Part shown: positions 6,602-39,423 of the stretch, one piece after another
Numbering within the stretch: position 1 is the stretch's first letter
Layout: each line of letters opens with the position of its first letter
DNA from: Chloroflexota bacterium
Lineage (GTDB): Bacteria > Chloroflexota > UBA6077 > CF-72
Length of the DNA stretch: 42,994 bases
Assembly: GCA_019239775.1 (NCBI GenBank)
Contig: JAFAZN010000082.1
Coordinates: forward strand, 1 to 42,994
Reading direction: 5' to 3'
Notes under the pieces: generated by a model
Databases searched by the model: none
What the model saw: only the letters and a program-made list of their open reading frames with translations
What the model was told of the DNA's origin: nothing
Program-made: the position numbers and the translations under genes

Positions 6602-8119
6602 TCAGCCCACCACCGACGACGAGGCTTCAGGAGTTGGGAGATAAATTCGTTCAAGGACTGCCAGACCGCCAAGCATCACGCCCAGCACGACAGGGATACG
6701 TGGATTGGTCAAGCCGAGGTCGACCCAGCAGAAGGCGAGGCTCATCAGGATCGCGCTCATCGCCAGACTGGCGAACACGCGCGCGTCTGGGTCACGTATT
6801 TTCCGCATCAATGCCGCGGCCCTCGCCAGACCACGGCACATGACGATGAAGAACAAGATGAAGCCGAAGACCCCGACTTTCATCCACACCCACAAAATGT
6901 CGTGGTGCGCCTCGTAGTTCCAGAATGGGAAGAACGAGATGTCAGGAATTGGCACGATCTGCAAGAACGGTCGGCCAAAGCCGACTCCGAGCAGCAGATT
7001 GGATTGAATGGTTGCCCGGACGTTGATCGCCTCCAGGTCGCGCGCCATATTGGAGGCTGCATCACGTGGATCGGGATTGCGCAATGAGCGCACCGCTCGA
7101 GCCGGCTGTCCCAGCATGCTTGTGTTGTTCCAGAACAGCGGCATATAGATCGCTGTGCCAATCAAGATCGGCACCGCGATCAACATGAAGGCCTTGCGCT
7201 TGATTACCCACAGCACCAGCGCGTATCCGCCGAATGCGATCATGACCGCGATGTAGCCGGCACGGCGTTCGCTCGCGAGCATGGTGTATCCGGCCACAAT
7301 TAGTGCGATCGGACCGAGCAGCACCTGCCATTTCGAGCCGCCAAACGCCAGGCGTGCGAACACGAGCATCATCAGCAGGCCCCAGATGACCACGTCCTCG
7401 TGCGAGTAGTAGGTCTCGGGAATGGTGCCGAGCAGTCCGTTATCGATGAGTGCGATCTTCCGCCACATGCCTTCGGCAGCGGACCATGCCACGCACACGA
7501 ACACGAGCGTCATCAGCGTGTTGATGTGGCCGCGCGTGCGAATGGTGTTGACTGTCAGCACGTAACACAACACCATCCAGAACAGGAAGCGAGACTCCCA
7601 GAAGGCGAAATTGAATATGCCTTCTTGCGCGAGGCCGCGTACCACACCCACGATCAAGAGCAGGCCGAACAAGAACATCGGCTTGCCAATGTCGCCAGCG
7701 CGCAGGCCGACTCGACGATAGCGATTCATAAGTTCGCCAGCCAACCAGACGGTGGTGACCAACAGCAGCAGGATCTCCATCGGCACCAGAATCAGCCCCG
7801 TGAATCCGGCACTCTGCTGGAGTGATGCGTTCATGAGTCCGCCTGGCGTCATCATCTGGTCGCCGCTGGCGGTTTCGAAGCCGAGCTCCAGGCCCAGCAG
7901 TGTGTACAAGCCGAAGCGTGGGCGGATGATCAGCGCGACCAGCGCAACCCAGATCAGGAAGCCAGACACCGTGGCGATATCGAACGCCAGCACCAACCGG
8001 ATCAAGCTCAGCGATGCGACGATGACGCCGCAAATGAGCACGGCCATTCGCCGTCGCTGGGTCGATTCGATCCAGGACGTCGAGAACTTGCGGGCGTCGA
8101 TAACGGTAGCTGCTGCCAT
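6602..8119 (-). CDS. O-antigen ligase/polymerase (Wzy/WaaL-like)
   Basis: 505-residue polytopic membrane protein with about 11-12 hydrophobic segments and a long loop at about residues 340-395 that includes ASERRAGY, SMLGQPARAVRSL and LLGVGFGRPF. The loop and the G[VF]G motif followed by AHHDILWVWMKVGVFGF are typical of the O-antigen ligase/Wzy superfamily (Wzy_C). It would polymerise lipid-linked repeat units or ligate the polymer outside the membrane. The ATG at 8119 is preferred to the TTG at 8122. It lies between the 48-aa membrane protein gene and the acyltransferase gene in a tight operon with Wzz and the CpsD-like ATPase, which favours a polymerase role. Confidence 0.85.
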   Translation of the reverse strand: MAAATVIDARKFSTSWIESTQRRRMAVLICGVIVASLSLIRLVLAFDIATVSGFLIWVALVALIIRPRFGLYTLLGLELGFETASGDQMMTPGGLMNASLQQSAGFTGLILVPMEILLLLVTTVWLAGELMNRYRRVGLRAGDIGKPMFLFGLLLIVGVVRGLAQEGIFNFAFWESRFLFWMVLCYVLTVNTIRTRGHINTLMTLVFVCVAWSAAEGMWRKIALIDNGLLGTIPETYYSHEDVVIWGLLMMLVFARLAFGGSKWQVLLGPIALIVAGYTMLASERRAGYIAVMIAFGGYALVLWVIKRKAFMLIAVPILIGTAIYMPLFWNNTSMLGQPARAVRSLRNPDPRDAASNMARDLEAINVRATIQSNLLLGVGFGRPFLQIVPIPDISFFPFWNYEAHHDILWVWMKVGVFGFILFFIVMCRGLARAAALMRKIRDPDARVFASLAMSAILMSLAFCWVDLGLTNPRIPVVLGVMLGGLAVLERIYLPTPEASSSVVG

Positions 8120-8130
8120 CAAAATCTGGC

Positions 8131-8283: not shown

Positions 8284-9081
8284 TTACGCCCCGATCAGGC
8301 GCTGCAACCAGGTTGGAATCGAGGTCTGCGTGCCGTTGAGCACCACGCCGCGAAGCTTGCCCTCCTCGAGCTGCTCGAGCGCCTTGGTGACCAGGTTCAT
8401 CGGAGTGACACCGGAGCGCGCCACGCAGATGGCGCCATCCGCGAGGTCCGTCAGCAGCACCGAATCGCTATTGGCAAGGATAGGTGGCAGATCGAGAATG
8501 ACGACCTCGTATGACTGGCGCATGCTGTCGATCAGGGCGGCGATGCGGCTGGATCGCAGTGGTCGACCGACGTGACGCACCTGACCACCCACCGGCACGA
8601 TGTGCAGGTTGTCCAGATAGGTTGGACGGATGGCCGCCTGGAGGGGTTCGCCCGCGGAGACACAGTCCACCAGGCCAGGGGTTGCCGCGACGTCGAAGTC
8701 CTGCGCCAGGGCGGGACGTTGGAAGTCCGTTTCTACCAGCAGCACGCGGCGATCCGGAAAGTCCTGGGCGATGGTTGTCGCCAGGCCAACCGCCACGGTG
8801 GTTTTGCCCTCACCAGCAATTGCGCTGCAAACTGCGAGGACTTCGGAGGTGAAGCCGACGCCGGCCCGCGTGTAGATGCCGCGGAAGACGTCGTCCACGC
8901 CGGAGAAGTGCCATTCGCGTGGCTCCTGCCGGTTAAGGCCCAGCGCGCCGTTGTTCCGGCGCTGAAGGTAGCCGCCCTCGGCCGGGCCGTTGGTTTTGCC
9001 GTGCGTCCAGTCCGCGGCGGTCTCGGCGGTCGGATCGGTAATGTCCGTCATGTCGGTGTCCAGATACTCCTGCGTCGCCAT
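8284..9081 (-). CDS. CpsD/CapB-like tyrosine-kinase-type P-loop ATPase
   Basis: 265 residues. The P-loop is SAIAGEGKTTVAVGLA (about 85-100), the Walker A' segment is VLLVETDFQRPAL and Walker B is VVILDLPPIL, the arrangement of bacterial tyrosine kinases and MinD/ParA-type ATPases in polysaccharide operons. The family pairs with Wzz to control chain length through ATP binding and Tyr phosphorylation. The usual C-terminal tyrosine cluster is missing: the protein ends TSIPTWLQRLIGA, and the few tyrosines lie near the N-terminus. Walker A' has ETD in place of the common DAD/DxD. It follows wzz by 3 nt, the split Wzz + kinase arrangement known from Firmicutes. ATPase assignment is firm, autokinase activity is unproven. 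Confidence 0.85.
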   Translation of the reverse strand: MATQEYLDTDMTDITDPTAETAADWTHGKTNGPAEGGYLQRRNNGALGLNRQEPREWHFSGVDDVFRGIYTRAGVGFTSEVLAVCSAIAGEGKTTVAVGLATTIAQDFPDRRVLLVETDFQRPALAQDFDVAATPGLVDCVSAGEPLQAAIRPTYLDNLHIVPVGGQVRHVGRPLRSSRIAALIDSMRQSYEVVILDLPPILANSDSVLLTDLADGAICVARSGVTPMNLVTKALEQLEEGKLRGVVLNGTQTSIPTWLQRLIGA

Positions 9082-9084
9082 GGA

Positions 9085-10158
9085 TCAGCGTGCCCCCCGA
9101 GCAGCGGGCAAAGCCATGCCAGCCGCGGCCCCAATGGCCCGTCGTGTCGCGACGGTGCGCAATTTCTTGGGAACGCGTTTGACAGTCAGGCTTGGCACCG
9201 CACCCAGCAGACGCAGACCCGGTGCGAGATCCGCTTCGTCGCGCGCCGAACGATCCGCGGCGACGAACAGGACGAGCAGAAGGGCGCTGAGCCCCAGACC
9301 GCTCACGAGCGCTGCGATGGGATAAACGATGAGTTTCCGAAGTGAGCGCGTTGGCGCAGTCGGCATCTTGGCCTGATCGAGCACCTGGAAGCCGAGCTGG
9401 GCGCCCTGCAGCGCCGCGGCCGAATCACGCTGCGCCGCCTGCAGATTCGTCTGCGCACTGTTGAGATCACTCTGAGCCTGCTGGACAGCCGTGGTGAGCT
9501 GAGCTAGCTTCGGATCCAGCAGCGCGGCCATATCCGGTGTGGTGGTGGTTGGGTCCAGTCCAACGTTGGCGTCACCCGCGGCGGCTTGCGTCGCGAGATA
9601 CCGCCGCAGATCCGCGGTCGCTTTGCTAAGCGTCTGCTGCGACTCCTGGATGTGCGACTGGTAGTAGGCAACGGCAAGGCCGGATTGATCGGTCATATCC
9701 GCCTGGACCTTTTCCTGGTACGCGTTGACCAGGGAGGTCGCGACTTCGTAGGAAAGCAAACCGGTTGGCGCGGACACCGCCACGATCAGCAGATGGTCGC
9801 TGGGACGATCGATGCTAATGGTGTGCGTCAGAATGTCGTCGATTCGAGCTTCGCCGGCACTCGACCCAACCAATGGAGCGAGCGTTGTCGTCCGCCTGGC
9901 GACGTCCACCTCGAACGGGTGGGTATGCAGCAACTCGGTCATGTGGTTCGCTTGTACCTGGGCAGGCGTCACCCACTGGTTGGACCCATCCTGGTAATTC
10001 AGGTAGGTCGGGTGATCAACCCAGATGGCAACGTACGAGTCGTACACCGTGGGCGCCGTCGCGACAACGATCGGCGTGACAACCGCTGGTATGAGGATCG
10101 GCGGCAGCAGCAACAAGAGCTTGTGCCGAAAAAATGCCTCCAGTATTCGTCGAATCAT
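9085..10158 (-). CDS. Wzz-type polysaccharide co-polymerase (chain-length determinant)
   Basis: 357 residues with the Wzz topology: an N-terminal membrane helix (about 13-38), a long extracytoplasmic part and a second helix (about 285-312) followed by a basic cytoplasmic tail. The central part carries predicted coiled coil (residues about 165-275, rich in Gln/Ala, including QQAQSDLNSAQTNLQAAQ). Wzz proteins set the length of Wzy-made polymers and recruit the kinase, which here is the separate product encoded 3 nt downstream. The start ATG overlaps the stop of the preceding glycosyltransferase gene as ATGA, implying translational coupling. Confidence 0.85.
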   Translation of the reverse strand: MIRRILEAFFRHKLLLLLPPILIPAVVTPIVVATAPTVYDSYVAIWVDHPTYLNYQDGSNQWVTPAQVQANHMTELLHTHPFEVDVARRTTTLAPLVGSSAGEARIDDILTHTISIDRPSDHLLIVAVSAPTGLLSYEVATSLVNAYQEKVQADMTDQSGLAVAYYQSHIQESQQTLSKATADLRRYLATQAAAGDANVGLDPTTTTPDMAALLDPKLAQLTTAVQQAQSDLNSAQTNLQAAQRDSAAALQGAQLGFQVLDQAKMPTAPTRSLRKLIVYPIAALVSGLGLSALLLVLFVAADRSARDEADLAPGLRLLGAVPSLTVKRVPKKLRTVATRRAIGAAAGMALPAARGAR

Positions 10159-11312
10159 GCCGCTCTCCTCGTGTGCTGCTGAGCCAGACCCAGGTCGACG
10201 ACCAGGTCCAGCAAAGCGCTGTTATTGCGTTGCGCGTCGAATTTGGCGCGTGCGAGGGCATGACCCACGCTGCCCATGCTGTCGCGGCGCGCTGGATCAT
10301 CGACCAGCGCTGCCACCGCGGCGCGAAGCGCGGCCGCGTTGCCAGGTTCAATCAGAAGTCCGGATGCACCGGGTGTTACCGCCTCGGAGAGTGCGCCGAC
10401 GTCGGTCGTGATGACCGGTAGTCCGGCGGCCGTCGCTTCCATCAGCACTACAGCCAAACAATCGGCATATGTGGGCAGGATGAACAGGTCGGCCTGCGCG
10501 AACTGCCGCAGTAGTTCGGGGCTGTTGGCCTGCAAACCACGATGCACGAACACGTTCGGCTGCTCCTGGACATTGGCACCCGTCACCAGGTGCAGCTCAC
10601 ATCGCTCAGCGAGATACGGATCCCGCATCAACTCGAGGAGGAGTGGTCCACCCTTGCGCTGGAAGTCTCCGCCGACAAACAGCAACCGAACCCGCCCGGC
10701 CGCCGAAGAAGAGTCCACCTCAGAGGTGCGTCGCTCTCCAATGGCGAAGTAGTCCGGTGCCGCACCGGGTGCCAGAACGCGAATCTTGTTGCCGTCGATG
10801 GCGTAGTCGTCAATGACGGACCGTTTGGTCCATTCCGACCATGTCACCAGTTGCGCGGCGTCTTGAAGCGCAAGTTGGTTGAGGCGGAACTTCTGCCGAT
10901 CGACGAAGCCGTTGCCGGCCGCGCGGTGGCCGTACGCTGCGCCCACGCTGTCGTAATTGATTGGGGTTGCGTCCAGCGAAACAATTGTTGGTGTCTGGCG
11001 CATGTGCGTCCGAGAAAACAGCGAAGTGACCTGCGTGTGGAACACGATTGCGTCCAGCGACTCGCGAGCCTGGATGCCGTCGAGCGCGCGGCGTGCTCGC
11101 CAGCTGGCGCGCACTGACCAGTTGCTCCGCATGAGCGGTACGAATCGAGCCCGCCCACTCACCGCGAACGGGATTGGCACCCACTCGGGCGTCACATCCG
11201 TCCGCAGCGCTGCGTAGCTGCGCAGGTTGCGGTAGTGGGTCACATGTCCGAGTGTCTGCTCTACGACAAATGCCGTACGGACAGCGCGACTCGGACGCAC
11301 TTGCTGCTTCAT
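10155..11312 (-). CDS. GT4-family glycosyltransferase, first gene of the polymerase operon
   Basis: 385 residues with a GT-B fold. Visible are LLFVGGDFQRKGGPLLLEL, HRGLQANSPELLRQFAQADLFILPTYADCLAVVLMEATAAGLPVITTDVGALSEAV (GT4 acceptor-to-donor region with a diverged EX7E, here D-C-L-A-V-V-L-M-E). It closely resembles the protein at 18955-20079 (shared VGGxFxRKGG, NSPELLR, ADLFxLPTxAxC), so the two are probably paralogues. It leads the operon running to 5439. The ATG lies only about 10 nt after a -10-like CAGAAT and has no well-placed Shine-Dalgarno. The repeat at 11361-11377 lies 48 bp upstream. Confidence 0.9.
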   Translation of the reverse strand: MKQQVRPSRAVRTAFVVEQTLGHVTHYRNLRSYAALRTDVTPEWVPIPFAVSGRARFVPLMRSNWSVRASWRARRALDGIQARESLDAIVFHTQVTSLFSRTHMRQTPTIVSLDATPINYDSVGAAYGHRAAGNGFVDRQKFRLNQLALQDAAQLVTWSEWTKRSVIDDYAIDGNKIRVLAPGAAPDYFAIGERRTSEVDSSSAAGRVRLLFVGGDFQRKGGPLLLELMRDPYLAERCELHLVTGANVQEQPNVFVHRGLQANSPELLRQFAQADLFILPTYADCLAVVLMEATAAGLPVITTDVGALSEAVTPGASGLLIEPGNAAALRAAVAALVDDPARRDSMGSVGHALARAKFDAQRNNSALLDLVVDLGLAQQHTRRAA

Positions 11313-11385: not shown

Positions 11386-11943
11386 CTATCCGCCCGAGCT
11401 GGTGGCAATGAACGTTGGGCCACCGCTACTGTGCATTTCGATCGTCGGTCCGCGGTCGGCAAATGGCGACTCATCCGCAGCCCAAACGAAGGTCAACCAC
11501 ACGAGGAACACCACGATGGAGACCAGCGCTGCGATGGCCGCAACCAGCAGCACCAGACGGCCCGTCAAGGACGGAGCTTTTTCTACGGAAGGGTGGCTGG
11601 CCCGCTGCCTTGCAGCCACAACATCGGCGCGACTGCGAACTGCTAGCGCGGCGCCGGGCTTCACCGGATGCGAGGCGATTGTCGGGATCATGCGCTCGCG
11701 CCGTCGTTCTCGGGCGCGCTGGAGGTCGTACGTGGCCCGCCTACCGGTGTCGCTGAGGACGTGGTAGGCGGTGTTGATGTCGCGAATCCGCCGCTCGGCG
11801 GACGGGTCCTTTCTTACGTCGGGGTGCCAGGTGCGTGCCAGCACCTTGTACGCGGCCTGAATAACTTCAGGGCTAGCATTGGCACTCACCTCGAGCATCT
11901 CATAGAGGTCGACGCCGCCGCGCTCGGGCGACGAATCGGCCAT
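11386..11943 (-). CDS. J-domain (DnaJ-like) membrane protein
   Basis: 185 residues. An N-terminal J domain (about 12-72) has DLYEMLEVSANASPEVIQAAY, the diagnostic HPD tripeptide in RTWHPDVRKD, and INTAYHVLSDTGRRATYD. A basic linker with many Arg follows, then one membrane helix (about 127-152) and a short Gly/Ser tail outside. J domains stimulate Hsp70 ATPase, so this should recruit DnaK to the membrane. No zinc-finger or substrate-binding DnaJ domains are present. Its ATG overlaps the stop of the adaptor gene as TGATG, so the two are translationally coupled. The reason for pairing a J protein with a secretion-type adaptor is unknown. Confidence 0.85.
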   Translation of the reverse strand: MADSSPERGGVDLYEMLEVSANASPEVIQAAYKVLARTWHPDVRKDPSAERRIRDINTAYHVLSDTGRRATYDLQRARERRRERMIPTIASHPVKPGAALAVRSRADVVAARQRASHPSVEKAPSLTGRLVLLVAAIAALVSIVVFLVWLTFVWAADESPFADRGPTIEMHSSGGPTFIATSSGG

Positions 11944-13844
11944 CAGGACGTCAGTGTCACGACCTGGCCCTCGCTCAGGCCGCTGACAATCTCAACCTTG
12001 TCGTCCGCGGTAATCCCAACCTGTACGTTGGTAATCTTCTTGTTGGCGCCATCGACGACCTCGACGTAGGTTTTGCCGGCAGTCGTGCGCAGGGCCGTCT
12101 TGGGCACGACCAGCACGTCGGTCTTTTGCTGCACCGTCACTTTGGCGGTCACCGGGATCCCAAACCGCGGGGCACCACTCGCCGGCCAGTCAGCCTTGAT
12201 ATCAGCGGTCGCATTGCCGCCGCTCTGCGCGGCTGTTGTCATCTTGGCCACCGAGCCCGGGATGGTTACCGGCGTGCCGTTGCCCGAATCGAGGGAGATG
12301 TCGGCGGACTGGCCAACACTCAATTGCGCCGCTTCGTCGTCGCTCAACTGGAGGCGCACGATGGGAGATCCAGGCTGCGCCAGCGTAATCGCTGGTTTCG
12401 CCGAGGTGATCGTGTCGCCCGGCTTGACCTTTACGGACAGAACCGTGCCTGTGAACGGAGCGATGATCTTGGACTGGTCAAGCTGGTTCTGCAAGCTGGC
12501 GACATCCGCGTCGTCCTGCGTCACGGCTTCCTGCAGGGAGCCGAGGTCGACTCCACCCGGATCGGTTGGAGACTGAACCGCCGTCTGTGCTGCAAGCAAA
12601 TTCTGCTGGGCGCGACGGACCTGGTCCTGCGCGTCGGCAAGCTCGAGCGGAGTCGGATGGCCGTTGAGCGAATCGACTCGCGCTTGCGCGTCGGCGGCAG
12701 CGTTTGTCGCGGCGTCAACTGCCGCCTGCGCTGCGTCCAGCGTCTGCTGGTCCGCCGGGTTCCCCAGCGCAGCAAACTTCGCGTTCGCCGCGGACAGCGC
12801 GTCCTGAGCCGCTTGTGCTTTCTGGGTAGCCGTCTGCACGTCATAGTCGGCCGGCGGGGTCTGGAGTTTGTCGAGCTTGTCCTGGGCTTGCTGCACCGCA
12901 AGCTGGGCATCTGCCACGGCGCTGTCGTGCGCCAGCTTGCCCGCGGCGGGGTCCAGCTTTGGATCTGGCTTGGATGAGATGGTCAGCTGCAGATTGGTCT
13001 TGGCGCGATCGACGTCGCGCTGCGCTGCTTGAATGACCATCGGGTCCGGACCCCGCAGGAGGTTCTGCAGGTCGGCATTGGCCTTCTCGGCGGCGATCTG
13101 CGCATTCTGTACGTCGAGCTGCGCCTGCCGCACCGTCGCCGAGTCTGGCAGGTTATTGAGCTTGTCCTGCGCAGCTTGCGCTTTTTGCAGCTGCGCCACG
13201 GCATTGACCAGGTTCTGCTGCGCGGCGTGCTTGTCGGCGTCCGACGGGCCAGCGAGCACCTGGTCCAGTTGCGCCTGCGCCTTGCGTAGGCCGGCTTGAG
13301 CATCCTGAATTGCTTGCTGCTGTTGCTGTTGTTGCTGTGCCGCGCGTTGCGCGCTGGTTTTCTGCTGAGCCGCGAGCTGGGCTCGCGCCTGAGCCAGGTT
13401 GGCCTTCGAGGTCTGCGCGCGCGCTTGTGCCGCGTCGAGCGACCGCTGCAGTTCGACCGTGTCGAGCTGGAGCAGGACATCGCCTTCATTCACGGCCTGG
13501 CCGGCCTTGACCTTGACGTCCTGGACCTTGCCGGAGCCTTGATAAACGATCGGGACTTCGACGGGAGCCGAAACCACGCCATCGATGGACATCGTCTGGG
13601 CGATGGCATCCTTTTTCACCAGCGCCTGGCGCGGGCCAAGCTGCGTGGTCGCCACCGAGTTGGCGGGGATAGCCACTGTCGGGCCGGCTTGGACCACGCT
13701 GTCGGCCGGGACTGTGCCGCTGGCAGCGGTTGTTCCGTCGGTAGTGTTGGTCAACCTGGGCAACATGCCGCAGGCGGTGGACAGCGACAGGGTGAGCAGA
13801 CCCGCCACCGCGAATTTCCTGGACCAGTTGGTACGAGTCGTCAC
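11943..13844 (-). CDS. HlyD/MacA-type adaptor lipoprotein with a very long coiled coil
   Basis: 633 residues. The N-terminus is a lipoprotein signal (LSLSTAC, lipid Cys 25). A lipoyl-like half motif (GSGKVQDVKVKAGQAVNEGDVLLQLD, about 103-128) is followed by some 325 residues of Ala/Gln-rich helical hairpin (about 130-455) with a run of eight or nine Gln near 170, then the second lipoyl half (IIAPFTGTVLSVKVKPGDTI), a beta-barrel and a membrane-proximal domain. Typical membrane fusion proteins have 350-450 residues, so the hairpin is greatly extended. No transporter is adjacent: it shares an operon only with the J-domain gene. In this island it might serve polymer or protein export (inference). 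GTG start with GAGGAG 11 nt upstream. Confidence 0.85.
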   Translation of the reverse strand: MTTRTNWSRKFAVAGLLTLSLSTACGMLPRLTNTTDGTTAASGTVPADSVVQAGPTVAIPANSVATTQLGPRQALVKKDAIAQTMSIDGVVSAPVEVPIVYQGSGKVQDVKVKAGQAVNEGDVLLQLDTVELQRSLDAAQARAQTSKANLAQARAQLAAQQKTSAQRAAQQQQQQQQAIQDAQAGLRKAQAQLDQVLAGPSDADKHAAQQNLVNAVAQLQKAQAAQDKLNNLPDSATVRQAQLDVQNAQIAAEKANADLQNLLRGPDPMVIQAAQRDVDRAKTNLQLTISSKPDPKLDPAAGKLAHDSAVADAQLAVQQAQDKLDKLQTPPADYDVQTATQKAQAAQDALSAANAKFAALGNPADQQTLDAAQAAVDAATNAAADAQARVDSLNGHPTPLELADAQDQVRRAQQNLLAAQTAVQSPTDPGGVDLGSLQEAVTQDDADVASLQNQLDQSKIIAPFTGTVLSVKVKPGDTITSAKPAITLAQPGSPIVRLQLSDDEAAQLSVGQSADISLDSGNGTPVTIPGSVAKMTTAAQSGGNATADIKADWPASGAPRFGIPVTAKVTVQQKTDVLVVPKTALRTTAGKTYVEVVDGANKKITNVQVGITADDKVEIVSGLSEGQVVTLTS

Positions 13845-13981: not shown

Positions 13982-14590
13982 TTACGAGGCGTACCAGCCT
14001 GAGATCCGTGGGAAGAGTGTGTCCGCGAGCTGGCTGGCTTGCTGCGCAACCGCCGCGTCGTCATTCCCCGTCAACGCGCTGGTGAGGTAGAGCTTGTAGT
14101 AGTCGTTCGCCAGCGCCATCACGCTGTCAAACACCGAAGCGCCCCAGGCCACTGGGCCGTTTCCGAGCAGGCCGCGCCGTTCACCATATGCGTACACCAC
14201 CAGCCAGCGCTCCTCGCCGCGCGAGGCAATCAACGCCTGATAGCGACCAGGCGCCTGAAACGACGAGACCTCGTAACCGCTTCCCAGGAATGGCACGTCG
14301 GCGCCCGCAAGGAACAGCTTCGGACTGGTGTTGGTCACCACCGTCAGCGTGGTAGGCGGCGCATCTGCGCGGAAGTAGGCGCGAGTAACAAAGGTCGCGC
14401 CGTTGGCGGACTCCAGCGTCTCAGGCCCAACGCCCCAATCGGGGACGGCGTACAGCGCATCGGCCGTGGGCCAGCGCGGGTCCTGTGCTGGCCGAGGCCC
14501 ACCGATCACCGTCGACACCGTCGCAGCGAACAGGAGAACCCCGATCAGTACGAAGGACCGTTGATAAAAGCCGTTGATAAAAGCTTGCAT
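13982..14590 (-). CDS. EpsI-type exosortase-associated protein
   Basis: 202 residues. One N-terminal membrane helix (about 12-30, SFVLIGVLLFAATVSTVIGG) is followed by an extracytoplasmic domain with WGVGPETLESANGATFVTRAYF, VVTNTSPKLFLAG and RWLVVYAYGERRG. This layout and its position right after an exosortase gene match the EpsI/exosortase C-terminal-associated family, which in other bacteria is often fused to the exosortase. Here it is a separate gene whose start overlaps the exosortase gene by 46 bp. It is the last gene of the unit beginning at 18828. The family assignment rests on context plus topology more than on a diagnostic motif. Confidence 0.7.
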   Translation of the reverse strand: MQAFINGFYQRSFVLIGVLLFAATVSTVIGGPRPAQDPRWPTADALYAVPDWGVGPETLESANGATFVTRAYFRADAPPTTLTVVTNTSPKLFLAGADVPFLGSGYEVSSFQAPGRYQALIASRGEERWLVVYAYGERRGLLGNGPVAWGASVFDSVMALANDYYKLYLTSALTGNDDAAVAQQASQLADTLFPRISGWYAS

Positions 14591-15396
14591 CCGACCAACC
14601 GGCTGATTAGCAGCAGCCCACTCAGCGCGAGCCCGAAGAGGACCAGGCTCGACGCGCCATGAAAGAATCCAACGGCGGCGTCCTGGCCCAGCCAGTTCGC
14701 CACCAGTAGCACCAGCGTTACGCGCGCGGTGTTGGCCAGGAGAACGAGCGGCAACACGCTAAAGAAGACGGCCACACGTCCAGGCAGCGAACCACGTGTC
14801 GCATAGGTCCATAACGCGGCGAGCGCGAGCAGCGAGAGCAGCGAGCTCATGCCCGAGCAGGCCTCGGCGACCACGAACGCAAATGTCTGCGACTGAATCA
14901 CCAGGCCTTCGCGCACGATGTGCAGGCCAAGCGCCTGTCCCGCAAAGGCGGCTCCGGTTGCCGTGATGTTCTGGAGCGCAAAGCCCAGTGAATTGAGCAA
15001 ACCTCGGTAGAGGCCGAGGCCAAAAATCAGAAACGCAATTGGAAATGCCAGCACCCGCGCGGCGCGCCAGCCCCACAAGTACACAACCGTGCCAAATAAC
15101 AACGGACTGATTGCGATGCCGCCGAGCGCATTAATGCCCATGCGACGACTCACGAGCGTGAGGACTAACGCGAATGCGACGATGGCCAGACCAACGTTCG
15201 AGCCGCGGCCGATGCTCGCGAACAGCGCCTTGCGCTGCCACCAGACCATGCCAAGTGCCAGCGGGGTGATGAGAAAGCCATAGCTGAACTCCTCGTCCAG
15301 CGACCAGACCGCCACCGCATGCACGTACGCCGGCACGATAAAAGCGGCAAGCGCTGCCAGGACTCCAATGCCCAGCAGCGCTCCCTTGAATCGCAT
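14545..15396 (-). CDS. Exosortase (XrtX-like transpeptidase-type membrane protease)
   Basis: 283 residues with about eight membrane helices. All three catalytic positions of exosortases/archaeosortases are present: Cys 180 in AEACSGMSSL, Arg 225 in ANTARVTL and His 246 in FFHGASSLVLF. The family cuts C-terminal tripartite sorting signals (PEP-CTERM and relatives) and anchors the protein outside the membrane. ATG at 15396 is preferred to the TTG at 15399. The upstream neighbour (15401-16168) carries a tripartite C-terminus and the downstream neighbour is EpsI-like, so enzyme, substrate and partner are consecutive genes. Confidence 0.92.
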   Translation of the reverse strand: MRFKGALLGIGVLAALAAFIVPAYVHAVAVWSLDEEFSYGFLITPLALGMVWWQRKALFASIGRGSNVGLAIVAFALVLTLVSRRMGINALGGIAISPLLFGTVVYLWGWRAARVLAFPIAFLIFGLGLYRGLLNSLGFALQNITATGAAFAGQALGLHIVREGLVIQSQTFAFVVAEACSGMSSLLSLLALAALWTYATRGSLPGRVAVFFSVLPLVLLANTARVTLVLLVANWLGQDAAVGFFHGASSLVLFGLALSGLLLISRLVGCKLLSTAFINGPSY

Positions 15397-15400
15397 CAAC

Positions 15401-16168
15401 CTACGCGTCGTCTCGCTTACGCGCTGCGCGAAGTCGCATCAGTCCGTAGCCAACCAGGCCAAGCGCGCCCGAGCCGAACAGCGCGATGCTATCGAGCTCT
15501 GGGGTTTGTGCCCAGACGCCAGGGCTGAAAGCGGGCGAACCCGCGTACGTATTGGTTGGCTGACCGCCCGTGCCGGTGCCCGTACCCGTCAGGAGCGAGC
15601 CGCCGTAGGCCGATGTCAGGATAACTGCCTGACGGCCAATGAACGCGAACGTGGAGTTGGGATCCAGCGGGTACGCGGTGTCGATGGTCACGTTGGCGTA
15701 GCCGTAGGGCACCGAGATTGCCGCGGCCTGGCCTGAAACCGTGCCCGTGGCGGTATCGATGCTGCAGTTCGCGACCTGGGATGGAGAGTTGACCGACGAT
15801 TGTGCACCGCTGGGGTCAAAGCCAACTCCGCTCACGCGGAGCGTCGCGTTGGTCACCGGGTTTGCGAGGACCGCGCAGATGTCGACGGTCGCGCCGGTGA
15901 CTGGCTGGTTGCCGTTAGGACCGGCGCATACGACCTGAACCTGGAACGTACCGGAGAAGCCACCGCTGTTCGCAACTGGCTGCATGATGATGCCCTGGTG
16001 CCCATTCTGGTTCTGCGAGAGTCCAAGCATCCATACCTGAACGCCAGATCCGCACGTACTGCTCTGCGCGGCCACCGGGGTCGCCGCGACCAGACCGAGT
16101 CCGAGCAGGCCGAATATCGGGGCTGCCCACGCAAGCCGCGTTAGCCGCGAGAAACCGGAACCCGTCAT
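15401..16168 (-). CDS. Candidate exosortase substrate with PELDS-type C-terminal anchor
   Basis: 255 residues from the ATG at 16168; upstream in-frame codons to 16360 run into the previous gene and lack signal-peptide character, so I reject the longer start. Signal peptide about residues 1-34 ending PVAA/Q. The mature part is a beta-rich domain with VQVVCAGPNGNQPVTGATVDICAVL, including paired cysteines. The C-terminus is tripartite: TPELDS at 222-227, a hydrophobic stretch 228-244 rich in Gly/Leu, and a basic tail RLRAARKR. That is the design of PEP-CTERM proteins, but the motif is PELDS and not the usual PEP. It is 4 nt upstream of the exosortase ATG. GGAGG lies about 14 nt before the start. 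Confidence 0.75.
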   Translation of the reverse strand: MTGSGFSRLTRLAWAAPIFGLLGLGLVAATPVAAQSSTCGSGVQVWMLGLSQNQNGHQGIIMQPVANSGGFSGTFQVQVVCAGPNGNQPVTGATVDICAVLANPVTNATLRVSGVGFDPSGAQSSVNSPSQVANCSIDTATGTVSGQAAAISVPYGYANVTIDTAYPLDPNSTFAFIGRQAVILTSAYGGSLLTGTGTGTGGQPTNTYAGSPAFSPGVWAQTPELDSIALFGSGALGLVGYGLMRLRAARKRDDA

Positions 16169-16304: not shown

Positions 16305-17783
16305 TCAGTACGCGCCGCGGTTCGTGAGAACCGCTGGAATCGTGCGCAACAGGATCTCAATATCCAGGCCGATGGACCAGTTGCGAATGTAATGCAGATC
16401 CAGGCGCACCATGTCGTGGAACGGCACTTCGCTGCGGCCGCTCACCTGCCAGAGGCCCGTCAGACCTGGCACAGCGCGCAGCCGACCCAGCTGCCATTCC
16501 TCGTATTCATCTACCTCCGCCGGAATCGGCGGCCGCGGTCCAACCAGGCTCATTTCACCGCGCATCACGTTGAATAGCTGTGGCAGCTCGTCCAGGCTCC
16601 AGCGCCGGATGAACTTGCCCACGCGCGTGACGCGTGGATCATCTTTCATCTTGAAGAGCGGACCGCTCGCCTCGTTCTTTTCGCGCAGGTCACTCAACTT
16701 GCGATCGGCGTTGACGATCATGGATCGGAACTTGTACATGCCGAACTGCCGACCGTTCTTGCCCACGCGTACCTGGCGATAGAACACCGGGCCCGACGAG
16801 TCCAGCTTGATGGCAATTGCCACCGCCAACAGAATTGGCGAGATCAAAAGCAGACCTAAACTCGTCGCCGCAAGGTCGACCACGCGCTTGATCCAGCTCA
16901 CGGACGCCGCCGGTGCAAAGCCGATGTAGCGGCGTCCACCGAACTCCTGGAGCTCGAATCGCTGCGGCAAGAGCTCGCCCAATTCCGGCAGGAACTTGAT
17001 CGTCACTGGCCTGTGAAAACCGCGGTTGACGATGTGTGTCACCTGTTCGCGTCGGTTGGTGGGGAGTGCAATCACGACCTCGTTGACGCCGTGCGCCTGC
17101 ACGATTTGCTCGAGCTGGGCAATTGGGCCGAGCAGGGGCAGATTTGGACTTCGCTCCAGCTCGCTACCGTTGTCGACGTAGCCGACCACGTGGAACTCGC
17201 CCTGCAGCTCGGCCGCCAACTCCTGGCCGAGGCGATTGGCACCAACAATGAGCACCCGATCCGGAATCGCGATGGCGTCCCGAATCCACGTGTACACGCG
17301 CGGAACGAGGGTGTGCCAACCAATCAGGATGGCAACGGCCGTCAACCAGCCGGTCGATAGCCACAAGCGTGAGAACGCCTGCTCACCCAGGAAGTAACTG
17401 GCCGCCACGGCCAGCACGAGTGCGGTGGAGATCGAAGAAACGATCCCTCCGATGCGCGCTGACCAGCTCTGAGGCTGTTGCAAATCGAACAGTCCGTGCG
17501 TCGCGAACAGAATGCCGGTACCAGCCGCTATCAGGGCAGCCATCCAGCTGTATTGCTCGACGCCCAGCGCAATAAATGTCAGGTCCGCGGCGACGAACCG
17601 GCTCCAGTACGCCAGCATGAACGCGCCGAAGACCAGCCCGAAATCGAGCAGCAGCAAGCACGCACCACCAGCCGTGGGCAGAGCGCGGCCGATGCGCGAG
17701 CGCATCGGCGACCATGCGCCGTGGTCCCCCACAAACGCTGGCGCCCATTGCTCGGTTTCCGCCCGCAGCTCAACCGTCGTCAC
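16305..17783 (-). CDS. Polyprenyl-phosphate sugar phosphotransferase (priming glycosyltransferase)
   Basis: 492 residues from GTG 17783. Four to five membrane helices (about 40-170), a Rossmann-like central domain (VLIVGANRLGQELAAEL), one further helix (about 300-325), then the bacterial sugar transferase domain: GPVFYRQVRVGKNGRQFGMYKFRSM, RRWSLDELPQLFNVMRGEMSLVGPRPP, PGLTGLWQVSGRS. This is the WbaP/CpsE/EpsE architecture, which moves a hexose-1-phosphate onto undecaprenyl phosphate and starts repeat-unit synthesis. The start is set by the 4-bp GTGA overlap with the small gene upstream and AAGGA 6 nt before it; the longer frame up to 17930 lies inside that gene. The sugar cannot be told from sequence. 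Confidence 0.93.
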   Translation of the reverse strand: MTTVELRAETEQWAPAFVGDHGAWSPMRSRIGRALPTAGGACLLLLDFGLVFGAFMLAYWSRFVAADLTFIALGVEQYSWMAALIAAGTGILFATHGLFDLQQPQSWSARIGGIVSSISTALVLAVAASYFLGEQAFSRLWLSTGWLTAVAILIGWHTLVPRVYTWIRDAIAIPDRVLIVGANRLGQELAAELQGEFHVVGYVDNGSELERSPNLPLLGPIAQLEQIVQAHGVNEVVIALPTNRREQVTHIVNRGFHRPVTIKFLPELGELLPQRFELQEFGGRRYIGFAPAASVSWIKRVVDLAATSLGLLLISPILLAVAIAIKLDSSGPVFYRQVRVGKNGRQFGMYKFRSMIVNADRKLSDLREKNEASGPLFKMKDDPRVTRVGKFIRRWSLDELPQLFNVMRGEMSLVGPRPPIPAEVDEYEEWQLGRLRAVPGLTGLWQVSGRSEVPFHDMVRLDLHYIRNWSIGLDIEILLRTIPAVLTNRGAY

Positions 17784-17968
17784 AGGGATCCTTTCCTCCA
17801 GGCGCGCACTCTCAGCGCCAGATATGCGAACGGAAACCACACCGCGACCCAGTACAGGCCGCCGACCACCAGCGTCACCAGAGACGTTGTTACGCCCTGC
17901 GCGTGACTCGGATTGGAGCCGTCGCTCCAACCGATCTCGTCGAGCATGCCGGCGATTCGCTCGTTCAT
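17780..17968 (-). CDS. 62-aa small membrane protein coupled on both sides
   Basis: A frame of 62 codons plus TGA. Its ATG overlaps the stop of the WecG/TagA-like gene (ATGA, 17968-17965) and its stop overlaps the GTG of the priming transferase (GTGA, 17783-17780). The product has an acidic N-terminal part (MNERIAGMLDEIGWSDG), one strong membrane helix (about 28-52, with GGLYWVAVWFPFAYLAL) and a basic end RVRAWRKGSL. Two exact 4-bp overlaps in the same operon are strong evidence of a real gene. No family is recognised. Co-production with the priming transferase suggests a partner of that membrane enzyme (inference). Confidence 0.75.
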   Translation of the reverse strand: MNERIAGMLDEIGWSDGSNPSHAQGVTTSLVTLVVGGLYWVAVWFPFAYLALRVRAWRKGSL

Positions 17969-18828
17969 GCCTCGGCTGCCAGGGTTGGAGTCGGCTTCGC
18001 CCCGCGTGTAGCGAGCATCACTGCCGCAAACGTCGGCAGATCGTCGATCAAATACCGTCGCCACAGTCGCGCCGGCTCCTGGACCAGGCGGAATGCCCAT
18101 TCCAGGCCGAGCTGCTGCATCCACCTGGGTGCGCGTTTGACTGCGCCGGCGTAGATGTCGAAAACGCAGCCCACGCCCATTGAGACGGGGACGTGCAGGC
18201 GGCTCATATGTTCGCGAATCCACACATCCTGGCGCGGCGCGCCAAGCGCTACGAACAGAAAGTGCGGCTGCGCCTCCTGGATCAGTTGGACGATGTACTC
18301 GTCCTCCTCGTCCGACAGCGACCCCTTGCTGGGCGAGTACGTACCCACCACGTTCAGGCCCGGATAGATGGCCCGCAGGTTTCTGGCAGCCTCTTCCGCC
18401 ACACCCTCTGCGGCACCGAGGAAAAACACCCCCAGGCCTTGTTCGGCGGCGATTTCGCAGCAGGCGCCAAACAGCTCAACCCCGGCCACACGCTCGGTCA
18501 GTGGAGTGCCCGTGTACCGCGACAGCCAGACCAGCGGCATGCCGTCCGGCACCGCCAGATCGACCTGGTTGAGCATGTCCATGAACTCGGGCCGCCGCCG
18601 CGCGATGCTCACGAAGTCGAGGTTGACCGTCGCAATCTGGTGCGAGCCGCCCGACGTGAGGAAGCGCTCGATGCGGTCCACGGCGCTATCGAAATCCACC
18701 TGGTCGACCATCACCCCGCCGAGGTTGACCCGCGGTCGTATCAGGCTGACGTTCTCCGTGTTGAAGAGCGTCACCGTAGGTAGAGGCTCTGAAGCCGTCC
18801 CTGTCAGTGCTAAAGCTTCAGTAGCCAC
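17965..18828 (-). CDS. WecG/TagA/CpsF family glycosyltransferase (GT26)
   Basis: 287 residues from GTG 18828. GT26 signatures: INLGGVMVDQV-like start, IATVNLDFVSIARR, VPDGMPLVWLSR, ERVAGVELF, GVFFLGAAEGVAEEAARNL, LFVALGAPRQDVWI and GVGCVFDIYAGAVKRAPRWMQQLGLEW. The family adds the second sugar (ManNAcA, ManNAc or similar) to a polyprenyl-linked primer, so it should act right after the priming transferase encoded two genes downstream. A TTG at 18843 would extend it by five codons, but GGAGG sits inside that extension, 8 nt before the GTG at 18828, which fixes the start. First gene of the unit ending with the EpsI-like gene. Confidence 0.92.
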   Translation of the reverse strand: MATEALALTGTASEPLPTVTLFNTENVSLIRPRVNLGGVMVDQVDFDSAVDRIERFLTSGGSHQIATVNLDFVSIARRRPEFMDMLNQVDLAVPDGMPLVWLSRYTGTPLTERVAGVELFGACCEIAAEQGLGVFFLGAAEGVAEEAARNLRAIYPGLNVVGTYSPSKGSLSDEEDEYIVQLIQEAQPHFLFVALGAPRQDVWIREHMSRLHVPVSMGVGCVFDIYAGAVKRAPRWMQQLGLEWAFRLVQEPARLWRRYLIDDLPTFAAVMLATRGAKPTPTLAAEA

Positions 18829-18888
18829 GAGACTCGCCTCCAAACGGTTTGCGCGTATGCGGGGGTAGCGTTGGGGTCAACGTCACCA

Positions 18889-36963: not shown

Positions 36964-39423
36964 ATGCGAGCTCCCACCACCTCGAATTCGATGAAGGCCC
37001 TGATCGTCGCCGGAGCGCTCACGAGCAGCCTCCTGGTCGCGGCCTGTGGCCAGCAAAAGCCGTCCGCCGCGGCGCCGACGCCGACACCGGTGCCGGCCGC
37101 CGCCGTCACGGCACAGGCCGCCAGCCGCGGCGACATCCAACAGACGCTGTCGTACAGCGGGGACATCCGCGCCCGCGAGCAGGTCAGCGTCCTGCCCAAG
37201 GTCTCGGGCCGTGTCGACAGCCTCATGGTCGACGTCGGCAGCCGCGTCAAGGCTGGTGACGCCCTGGCCGTGCTCGAACAGGACAGCGCTCAGATCACCG
37301 CGCTGCAGGCGCGCGCCTCACTGGCGGCCGCCGAGGCCAAGCTCGCCACGCTCCAGGCCGGCGCCAGGGCCGAGGACGTCACCTCCGCGCAAGCCCAACT
37401 GATCCAGCAGCAGGTCAAGCTGCAGAACATGCAAGACGGCGGACGTGCCGAGGATGTTCAACTGGCGCAGGCCGCGCTCGAAGCGCAGCAGGCCCGCCTC
37501 GACCTGATGGTGCAGGGTGGACGTCCCGAAGCCGTCCAGCAAGCACAGGACGCGCTCGACGCGGCGAACGCCAAGCTCACCGCGCTGCAGAAGGGCGCCA
37601 CGAACGACGTGGTGCAGGCTGCACAAAGTGCAGTCGACTCCGACAAAGCCGCGCTCGCCAGTGCCGAAGCCGCATTCGCTGCGCTTGGCGGCAACAACGC
37701 CGCGGACATGCAGTCAGCCCAGAGCCAGGTCGACACGCTGACGGCCAGTGTGGCCGCCTCGCAATCGGCGCTGGACTCCGCCAACGCCGCGCTCAAAAAC
37801 CTCCAGGGCACCGCGCCCGCCGACGTCCAGCAGGCACAGTCAGCCTATGACCAGGCCGTCGCCCAGCTAAAAGTCGCTCAGGCGGCGCTTGACCAGGGGA
37901 ATAACCCGACGCAGGCGTCGATCGCTCAGGCGGAAGCCGCCCTCGAACAGGCACAGGCCCAGCGGCAATCAGCTGAGGCCAATCAGACCGCGCTCGAGCA
38001 AAGCGTCGCGCAACCGTGCGCGGACAGCGTGAACCCGCTCACCGGTCAGAAAATCTCGCACAACTCCACGGCGTGCGGCGATGCCAAGGCTGCCGCAGAC
38101 GGAGCCGTGCAGGCTGGCAACGCCGCGGTGGAGGCAGCGCAAGGTCAGCTGGACCAGCTCAAGCGAGGTGGTGCGCCAGCCACCAAGGCGCAGCTGCAGG
38201 CAGCTGTCGATCAAGCCAACTCCAACGTCGCGGCTATGAAGCTGCGGCTGGATGCACTCAAGAGCGGCGGCATCGATGCCCAGCGCGCGCAGTTCCAGGC
38301 GCAGCACGATCAAGCGCAAAGCCAGCTCACTGCCAGCCAGCAAAACCTGGTGGTAGCGCAAGCGCGGCTGGATGCCATCAAGAACGGCACCCAGGATGCG
38401 CAGGTCAAGAACGCGCAATCGCAGGTGACTGCCGCCACCGAGCGGCTCAAGAGCGATCAGGCTCGCCTCGATCAGCTCAACGCCGGACCAACGGACGAGG
38501 ACTTGCAGCAGGCCCAATCAGCTGTCGATCAGGCGACGCAGCAGCTCGCGCTGGCTCGCCAACCCAGTACGGACCAGGACATTCGCGCGCAGCGTGCCGC
38601 GGTCCAGCAGGCTCAGCTGCAGCTGACCAAGGCACGCAGCCCCTACACCGATGCCGATCTTCAGCAACAACAGCAGGCGGTCGCCGCCGCCGAAGCGCAG
38701 CTGCACAAGGCGCAGAACCCGTACACGGACGACGACCTGAACGCGGCCAAAGCGACCGTCGATCAGGCGCAGGCACAGCTTGACCTCGCGCAGATCGGCG
38801 TTCGCGACACGACCATCACCGCGCCCGTTGACGGGGTCATTTCAGAGCGGCTGGTTTCGGCTGGTGCGCTCGTCAGTCCGCAAACGCCGATCGTGACGCT
38901 GGTTCCGCCTTCGCTCGAACTGGTCGTCAACGTAGATGAGTCTCAGCTTGGCCAAATCGCCGAAGGTCAGTCCGTCCAACTCCAGGTGCCAGCGTTTCCG
39001 AACCAGACGTTCGACGGCACGGTCAAGACCATCTCACCGACCATCGACAGCAAGACCCGCACGGCCGCCGTGCGCATCGAACCAGCTGATTCAGGGAGCC
39101 GGTTGCGCGCTGGCATGTTCGCTCGCCTGAACATCGTCACGGCCCAGAAGCAAAATGCGCTGGTCGTGCCGAAGGCCGCGGTCTTGTCTGCCGCACCGGG
39201 CACTTCGAACAACCAGCCGATGGTTCTGACGATCGATCCCACGGGTGTGGTGCATCGAATGCCGGTCCAGCTCGGCCTGCAAAACGATCAGCAAGCTGAA
39301 ATTCTCAGTGGCGTCGACGATGGCCAGCTGGTCGCCACCAGCAGCCTGAGCGACCTCGCCGACGGCGATATTGTCTCGCCGCAACTTCAAACCACGACCA
39401 CTGCCGATGTTCTCCATCGGTAG
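36964..39423 (+). CDS. RND-pump adaptor lipoprotein with repeat-extended hairpin
   Basis: 819 residues. Lipoprotein signal ending LLVAAC (Cys 28). Membrane-proximal and lipoyl halves: VSVLPKVSGRVDSLMVDVGSRVKAGDALAVLEQD (about 75-107) and ITAPVDGVISERLVSAGALVSPQTPI (about 618-643). Between them lies a 480-residue helical hairpin, several times the usual length. Both arms are built of 26-residue repeats: residues 132-235 (four copies, [GA]xRxEDV type) and 507-610 (four copies, PxTDxDL type). The tip holds Cys 352 and Cys 371, a possible disulfide. A beta-barrel and C-terminal domain follow. AAGGAGG lies 8 nt before the ATG. Pairs with the RND transporter. Confidence 0.92.
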   Translation: MRAPTTSNSMKALIVAGALTSSLLVAACGQQKPSAAAPTPTPVPAAAVTAQAASRGDIQQTLSYSGDIRAREQVSVLPKVSGRVDSLMVDVGSRVKAGDALAVLEQDSAQITALQARASLAAAEAKLATLQAGARAEDVTSAQAQLIQQQVKLQNMQDGGRAEDVQLAQAALEAQQARLDLMVQGGRPEAVQQAQDALDAANAKLTALQKGATNDVVQAAQSAVDSDKAALASAEAAFAALGGNNAADMQSAQSQVDTLTASVAASQSALDSANAALKNLQGTAPADVQQAQSAYDQAVAQLKVAQAALDQGNNPTQASIAQAEAALEQAQAQRQSAEANQTALEQSVAQPCADSVNPLTGQKISHNSTACGDAKAAADGAVQAGNAAVEAAQGQLDQLKRGGAPATKAQLQAAVDQANSNVAAMKLRLDALKSGGIDAQRAQFQAQHDQAQSQLTASQQNLVVAQARLDAIKNGTQDAQVKNAQSQVTAATERLKSDQARLDQLNAGPTDEDLQQAQSAVDQATQQLALARQPSTDQDIRAQRAAVQQAQLQLTKARSPYTDADLQQQQQAVAAAEAQLHKAQNPYTDDDLNAAKATVDQAQAQLDLAQIGVRDTTITAPVDGVISERLVSAGALVSPQTPIVTLVPPSLELVVNVDESQLGQIAEGQSVQLQVPAFPNQTFDGTVKTISPTIDSKTRTAAVRIEPADSGSRLRAGMFARLNIVTAQKQNALVVPKAAVLSAAPGTSNNQPMVLTIDPTGVVHRMPVQLGLQNDQQAEILSGVDDGQLVATSSLSDLADGDIVSPQLQTTTTADVLHR
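37357..37668 (+). repeat. Four 78-bp (26-residue) repeats in the ascending adaptor arm
   Basis: Residues 132-157, 158-183, 184-209 and 210-235 align without gaps; each starts xG[AG]R or KGAT followed by EDV/EAV/DVV and an Ala/Gln-rich helix ending in Leu. They lengthen the helical hairpin by one unit each. Confidence 0.8.
38482..38793 (+). repeat. Four 78-bp (26-residue) repeats in the descending adaptor arm
   Basis: Residues 507-532, 533-558, 559-584 and 585-610 align without gaps, each starting with (GP, PS, PY) TDxDL/I and running into a Gln/Ala-rich helix. Same period as the ascending arm. Confidence 0.8.

Follow-up and report, generated by a model that had tools for sequence, protein, structure and literature searches.

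A probable exosortase system with a TPEL[DS]S sorting signal in an exopolysaccharide operon of Chloroflexota

Exosortases are a class of protein-sorting enzymes whose acceptor in bacteria is, to our knowledge, not known. The closest described relative of the system presented here is the XrtA-type exosortase EpsH with its PEP-CTERM substrates (Haft 2006, PMC1569441), which was reported as confined to bacteria having an outer membrane. Exosortases have since been tied to the crossing of that membrane (PMC1569441, PMC12188702, PMC11980579), and papers from 2025 still assign them to Gram-negative bacteria (PMC12188702, PMC11980579). Our locus shares with the PEP-CTERM/EpsH system (PMC1569441) a PF09721 enzyme with Cys/Arg/His, several unrelated substrates per genome, substrates with a signal peptide and a C-terminal tail of motif, helix and Arg residues, and a location within an exopolysaccharide operon with an EpsI-like gene downstream. 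However, its motif, TPELDS, has no second Pro and falls below the PEP-CTERM models, its enzyme reaches 145 bits where the XrtA cut-off is 208, its EpsI-like partner is devoid of the HxPxxC of the EpsI proteins compared, and its host has no Omp85, whereas PEP-CTERM has been described only in outer-membrane bacteria (PMC1569441). The archaeosortase ArtA and its PGF-CTERM substrates (PMC7157517) are likewise comparable in having a related enzyme, a tripartite signal, several substrates and no outer membrane, but they are archaeal, use another motif and involve a lipid anchoring that has been demonstrated for ArtA, where the acceptor proposed below is a guess. Sortases and their LPXTG substrates also combine a C-terminal tripartite signal and a Cys/Arg/His enzyme with a seemingly one-membrane cell; they differ in that their fold is unrelated to the exosortase, which is a multi-spanning membrane protein, and LPXTG does not occur here. 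Our literature search, which covered few subscription journals, found no paper on Chloroflexota exosortases.

The window, which is the whole stretch of DNA that was analysed (42,994 nucleotides), belongs to a soil Chloroflexota genome (G000), and it was compared with two further species of the same genus (G001 and G002), with a genome of another Chloroflexota class (G230) and with a member of the family of G230 (G300). A preliminary description had placed an exosortase with a Cys/Arg/His triad in a polysaccharide locus of a probable Chloroflexota bacterium, next to an upstream gene for a signal-peptide protein ending in TPELDS, a Gly/Leu-rich helix and RLRAARKR, and all of this is borne out (Table 1). 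The exosortase is the sole PF09721 match of its genome (162.5 bits, threshold 25.7) and scores 136.7 bits against the general exosortase model TIGR02602 of NCBIfam (cut-off 105.55), while its triad, located in membrane segments and numbered from the ATG at 15396, occupies columns that almost all of the ten other Chloroflexota exosortases in the alignment share (11 enzymes in total); both enzyme family and triad are established by computation. Among the named NCBIfam subtypes (XrtA, B, C, D, V, W, T and others) its best score was the 145.4 bits obtained with XrtA, and it falls under every cut-off, as do the exosortases of G001 and G230. Identity among these three enzymes is 56-60%, against 21-31% with the eight other Chloroflexota exosortases compared; the three form one clade with a support of 100/100, and they share a signature in which EEFSYG replaces the [ST]HG of the others and an extra YRGLL stands where the others have PLPF. 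The G000 enzyme belongs to an unnamed exosortase subtype, which is sampled here from three genomes only (G000, G001 and G230), all of them draft assemblies. No solved structure matched it by sequence. The substrate gene lies upstream, with 4 bp between its stop codon and the exosortase ATG, and the C-terminus of its product, WAQTPELDSIALFGSGALGLVGYGLMRLRAARKRDDA, consists of TPELDS, the helix IALFGSGALGLVGYGLM and, at the very end, RLRAARKRDDA. NCBIfam and Pfam searches with this protein returned no family match, and its structure prediction had a pLDDT of 31.

Table 1. Coordinates of the sorting genes and of the surrounding polysaccharide operon in the window
Feature	Position	Strand	Basis or remark
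WecG/TagA/CpsF glycosyltransferase	17965..18843	-	PF03808, 221.7 bits
Exopolysaccharide sugar-phosphate transferase (polyprenyl glycosylphosphotransferase)	16305..17930	-	TIGR03025, 421.8 bits (cut-off 295.55)
Putative substrate of the exosortase (255 aa), outside known families	15401..16168	-	ORF; G001 orthologue at same place
N-terminal signal peptide region of substrate, MTGSGFSRLTRLAWAAPIFGLLGLGLVAATPVAAQ	16064..16168	-	by inspection
TPELDS motif of sorting signal	15488..15505	-	invariant in six genus tails
Hydrophobic helix of signal, 17 residues, IALFGSGALGLVGYGLM	15437..15487	-	sequence, tail alignments
Basic tail RLRAARKRDDA	15404..15436	-	sequence
Exosortase, unnamed subtype, 283 aa	14545..15396	-	PF09721, TIGR02602; alternative TTG start at 15399 (ORF 14545-15399)
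Cys180 codon, presumed nucleophile (EACSGMSS)	14857..14859	-	sequence; conserved in alignment
Arg225 codon (NTARVT)	14722..14724	-	sequence; alignment
His246 codon (FFHGASS)	14659..14661	-	sequence; alignment
EpsI-like protein, N-terminal membrane helix and alpha/beta domain	13982..14590	-	overlaps exosortase end by 46 bp
HlyD/RND-type adaptor	11943..13844	-	TIGR01730, 128.4 bits (cut-off 94.9); same place in G001 and G230
DnaJ-domain protein, C-terminal membrane segment	11386-11943	in minus-strand operon	kept in G001
Glycosyltransferase family 4	10155..11312	-	PF00534/PF13692; synteny
Polysaccharide chain-length-type protein	9085..10158	-	TIGR03007, 36.9 bits, below cut-off; synteny
AAA_31 ATPase, chain-length partner kinase type	8284..9081	-	PF13614; synteny
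Wzy/O-antigen ligase-type protein	6602..8122	-	PF04932

The substrate had been called a dedicated one, a term that we abandon because each genome encodes at least three tail-bearing proteins. With a tail HMM, whose starting model was built from two sequences, three proteins were found in G000 and three in G001, the tails lying on three contigs in each. The two further G000 proteins (E 6.5e-11 and 1.9e-9) have unrelated bodies, one of them (contig C424) having Gly/Pro-rich repeats followed by the tail TPELDSLSLMASGLFGIGGFALMRWRARKPRR, and the other (contig C110) being a 98-aa protein with a signal peptide and the tail TPELDSLVLFGTGLAGVAGYGALRWRMRRR. Signal peptides were assigned by inspection in the window protein, in the proteins of C110 and C269 and in the G230 substrate, and the frames of C424 and C403 run to the contig ends. 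Conceivably, such a tail could be an ordinary C-terminal membrane anchor that is never processed and that lies beside an exosortase by chance, since many membrane anchors consist of a helix followed by basic residues and cleavage of the tail is predicted from the enzyme family. This is nevertheless very unlikely: TPELDS is invariant in all six genus tails, despite bodies that are largely unrelated; the tail of the window substrate is 68% identical to that of its G001 counterpart as against 29% for the rest of the protein; tail and exosortase track each other within the genus, G002 (93% complete) having neither; and in G006, G009 and G028 the exosortase gene has a neighboring substrate gene whose signal is related. 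Members of the order other than G002 that have no exosortase are likewise without the tail, and among relatives lacking the enzyme the tail HMM gave no match below E 0.02. The TPELDS signal is real and is not a product of chance. In 84,980 species genomes, a degenerate DNA pattern encoding PELDS[ILM]x[LF]FGx[GA], that is, the motif and the start of the helix, was matched four times; three of these matches are real tails, all in the genus relative Chloroflexi bacterium CF_72 (G001), while the fourth, in Erythrobacter, reads PEFDCIGLFGAGA inside a long frame and not PELDS. Further tail matches were rejected as well, as the one on C381 of G001 (E 0.001) is a dehydrogenase-like frame with no tail, those in G322, G175, G399, G163 and G324 fall on membrane segments inside the proteins, some 242 residues before the C-terminus, and the one in G231 is internal too. 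The C403 protein of G001 (L044:934-4247) contains many Ig-like repeats, and its frame shifts shortly before the TPELDS tail, perhaps owing to a frameshift or an assembly error.

The signal had been portrayed as PEP-CTERM-like with a different motif. The difference in motif stands, as the six TPELDS tails matched neither TIGR02595 nor PF07589, although control tails from G028 and G191 did, and the two TPELSS tails did not match TIGR02595. The comparison with catalogued signals that had been proposed gave the same result, with none of the catalogued CTERM models above cut-off for the TPELDS tail. What does not stand is a complete separation: proteins adjacent to exosortases end in IPELST (G006), IPEADS (G009) and the classical VPEPGS (G028), and PEPAT signals occur in G191, G038 and G360. 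Because these Chloroflexota relatives bridge the gap with IPELST, IPEADS and classical PEP signals, TPELDS belongs to the PEP-CTERM kind as one variant within a continuum, served by its own enzyme subtype, and is no separate kind of system. The exosortases that accompany these other signals resemble the TPELDS subtype in arrangement and share its phylum, three of them having an adjacent substrate gene, but they lie outside its clade at the low identities given above. The IPELST enzyme of G006 is among these, and the boundary between the motifs is therefore not a strict one. One may therefore ask whether the locus is a plain PEP-CTERM/exosortase system whose motif drifted by lineage with no real change in enzyme specificity, an explanation that is favored by a weak residual similarity of the TPELDS tails to PepA PEP-CTERM ends (E 0.04-0.12), the intermediate motifs, the identical helix-Arg architecture and an enzyme above the cut-off of the generic exosortase model. 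We regard it as possible but rather doubtful, since TIGR02595 and PF07589 do not match, and since the TPEL[DS]S genomes have their own enzyme clade and signature, with a pairing that spans two classes.

The distribution of enzyme and signal was followed in a sample of 400 Chloroflexota genomes by a profile search with PF09721, which matched in 31 of them, 11 having a compact EpsH-type exosortase (above 100 bits). A C-terminal PEx-type signal was verified in nine of these 11 genomes compared with one of the 389 others (Fisher p 8e-16), the C-terminal position having been checked for the top-scoring matches alone, so that weaker tails may be missed. TPEL[DS]S tails in particular occur in all three subtype-positive genomes and in one of the remaining 397, which bears out the co-occurrence that had been proposed for checking. 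G230, despite belonging to another class, encodes a TPELSS tail, a subtype exosortase and the same operon block. The exception is G300 (89% complete, 330 contigs), whose TPELSS tail is located at the edge of a contig and in which we found no exosortase. According to the preliminary description, PELDS-tailed proteins in genomes devoid of an exosortase would speak against the pairing; this situation arises once, in G300, while all three subtype genomes keep the pair. As for the substrates themselves, the G300 tail protein (L104:2-250) has Gly/Asn repeats and TPELSS, and the TPELSS substrate of G230 (L103:1498-2907) has a lipobox-like N-terminus, VIAGLGAC, and may therefore be anchored at both ends. 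The suggestion of a new enzyme/signal pair is supported by the distinct clade and by the presence of TPEL[DS]S in all three of its genomes, and it is very probable that they encode a complete exosortase-type sorting system in which an unnamed enzyme subtype is paired with this signal, with cleavage and the use of an acceptor being predicted.

The exosortase sits among exopolysaccharide genes (sugar transferase, WecG, GT2, GT4, Wzy and chain-length type), and the operon is conserved. In both G000 and G001 it runs sugar transferase, substrate, exosortase, EpsI-like, HlyD, DnaJ, GT4, chain length and AAA, while the G230 block comprises exosortase, EpsI-like, HlyD, GT4, chain length and AAA, the DnaJ-domain gene not being found between the same genes. 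This synteny also bears on whether the window contig might be a contaminant that came from a diderm bacterium instead of Chloroflexota. The assembly does contain about 5% contamination, but this origin is extremely improbable and is rejected because of the synteny: the whole operon is syntenic with that of another assembly from this genus, with tails on three contigs in each, that relative was deposited as Chloroflexi bacterium CF_72, and the operon block recurs in a third Chloroflexota genome of another class (G230). The near-equal distances between the G000, G001 and G230 enzymes, a comparison made on the exosortases alone, suggest that the block was transferred between Chloroflexota classes. 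The EpsI-like partner gene is present in all three subtype genomes. Its product had no Pfam or NCBIfam match; profile comparison with the DUF3485/EpsI proteins encoded beside the other exosortases of the order gave E 3e-5 and a probability of 73%, and the HxPxxC motif of these proteins is absent from it. Its AlphaFold model (pLDDT 75) predicts an N-terminal helix and an alpha/beta domain, and no solved structure matched the predicted fold at E 0.001. G005 encodes the sugar transferase (58% identical) and WecG with neither exosortase module nor tail, indicating that the polysaccharide locus can exist without the module. A second large HlyD-type adaptor, of 819 aa, is encoded elsewhere in the window (36964-39423).

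No Omp85/BamA was found in any of 29 genomes of the class or in any of 20 Chloroflexota genomes carrying an exosortase or tail (44 different genomes in all), and the same search was positive in seven of seven outer-membrane control genomes. Among the Omp85-free genomes are four with classical PEP-CTERM signals and exosortases (G028, L048; G191, L080; G038, L081; G360, L082). Given this absence from 44 genomes, Chloroflexota exosortase systems probably function in cells that lack an outer membrane, contrary to the rule in the literature, a judgment made from gene absence and not from microscopy. Certainly, the absence of Omp85 alone is no proof of a single membrane. A 2022 study interpreted the same gene pattern as favoring a single membrane and described the envelope of the Chloroflexi as still debated (PMC8871954).

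Several steps can be proposed for the operation of such a system. Firstly, the family and the sequences suggest that substrates are exported by Sec, after which the C-terminal helix would hold them in the membrane with the basic tail inside. Secondly, as expected for the family, the catalytic Cys of the exosortase, located close to the outer surface of the membrane, would cut at or next to TPELDS, and the new C-terminus would be passed to an acceptor. This acceptor could be, as a guess, a lipid, an undecaprenyl-linked glycan or the polymerised glycan of the same operon. With an outer membrane probably absent, processed proteins would be expected to remain on the outside of the one membrane or in the wall and the exopolysaccharide that the operon makes. 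The presumed users of the system are at least three proteins per genome, namely the one encoded in the operon and others encoded elsewhere. We suggest, only tentatively, a more specific picture of a distinct exosortase/signal pair of single-membrane bacteria that links surface proteins to the polysaccharide of its own operon, or to the lipid-linked precursor of that polysaccharide, and that has moved as a block between classes; if this were true, an exosortase would take over the job that sortase performs in other monoderms. Exosortase systems in an Omp85-free phylum, some of them with classical PEP signals, separate the enzyme reaction from outer-membrane transport and should thereby make it easier to study, and the TPEL[DS]S subtype offers a clean pair for testing the motif choice of exosortases.

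Other exosortases of the phylum were encountered as well. A larger type, with frames of 550-810 aa, occurs in G076, G130, G148, G309, G183 and G319 (L059-L065), where directly adjacent proteins end in PEAP or PEVP signals, such as VPEVPLAVLIPVGMLLVVAGYMVIARRR; the five tails scanned were under all NCBIfam cut-offs, and the three enzymes scanned were under the subtype cut-offs. In G269 (L085:2333-5431), two tandem proteins ending in DPPTWALLAGGAAALGFY-VLSRRRRR adjoin an exosortase and perhaps carry another type of signal.
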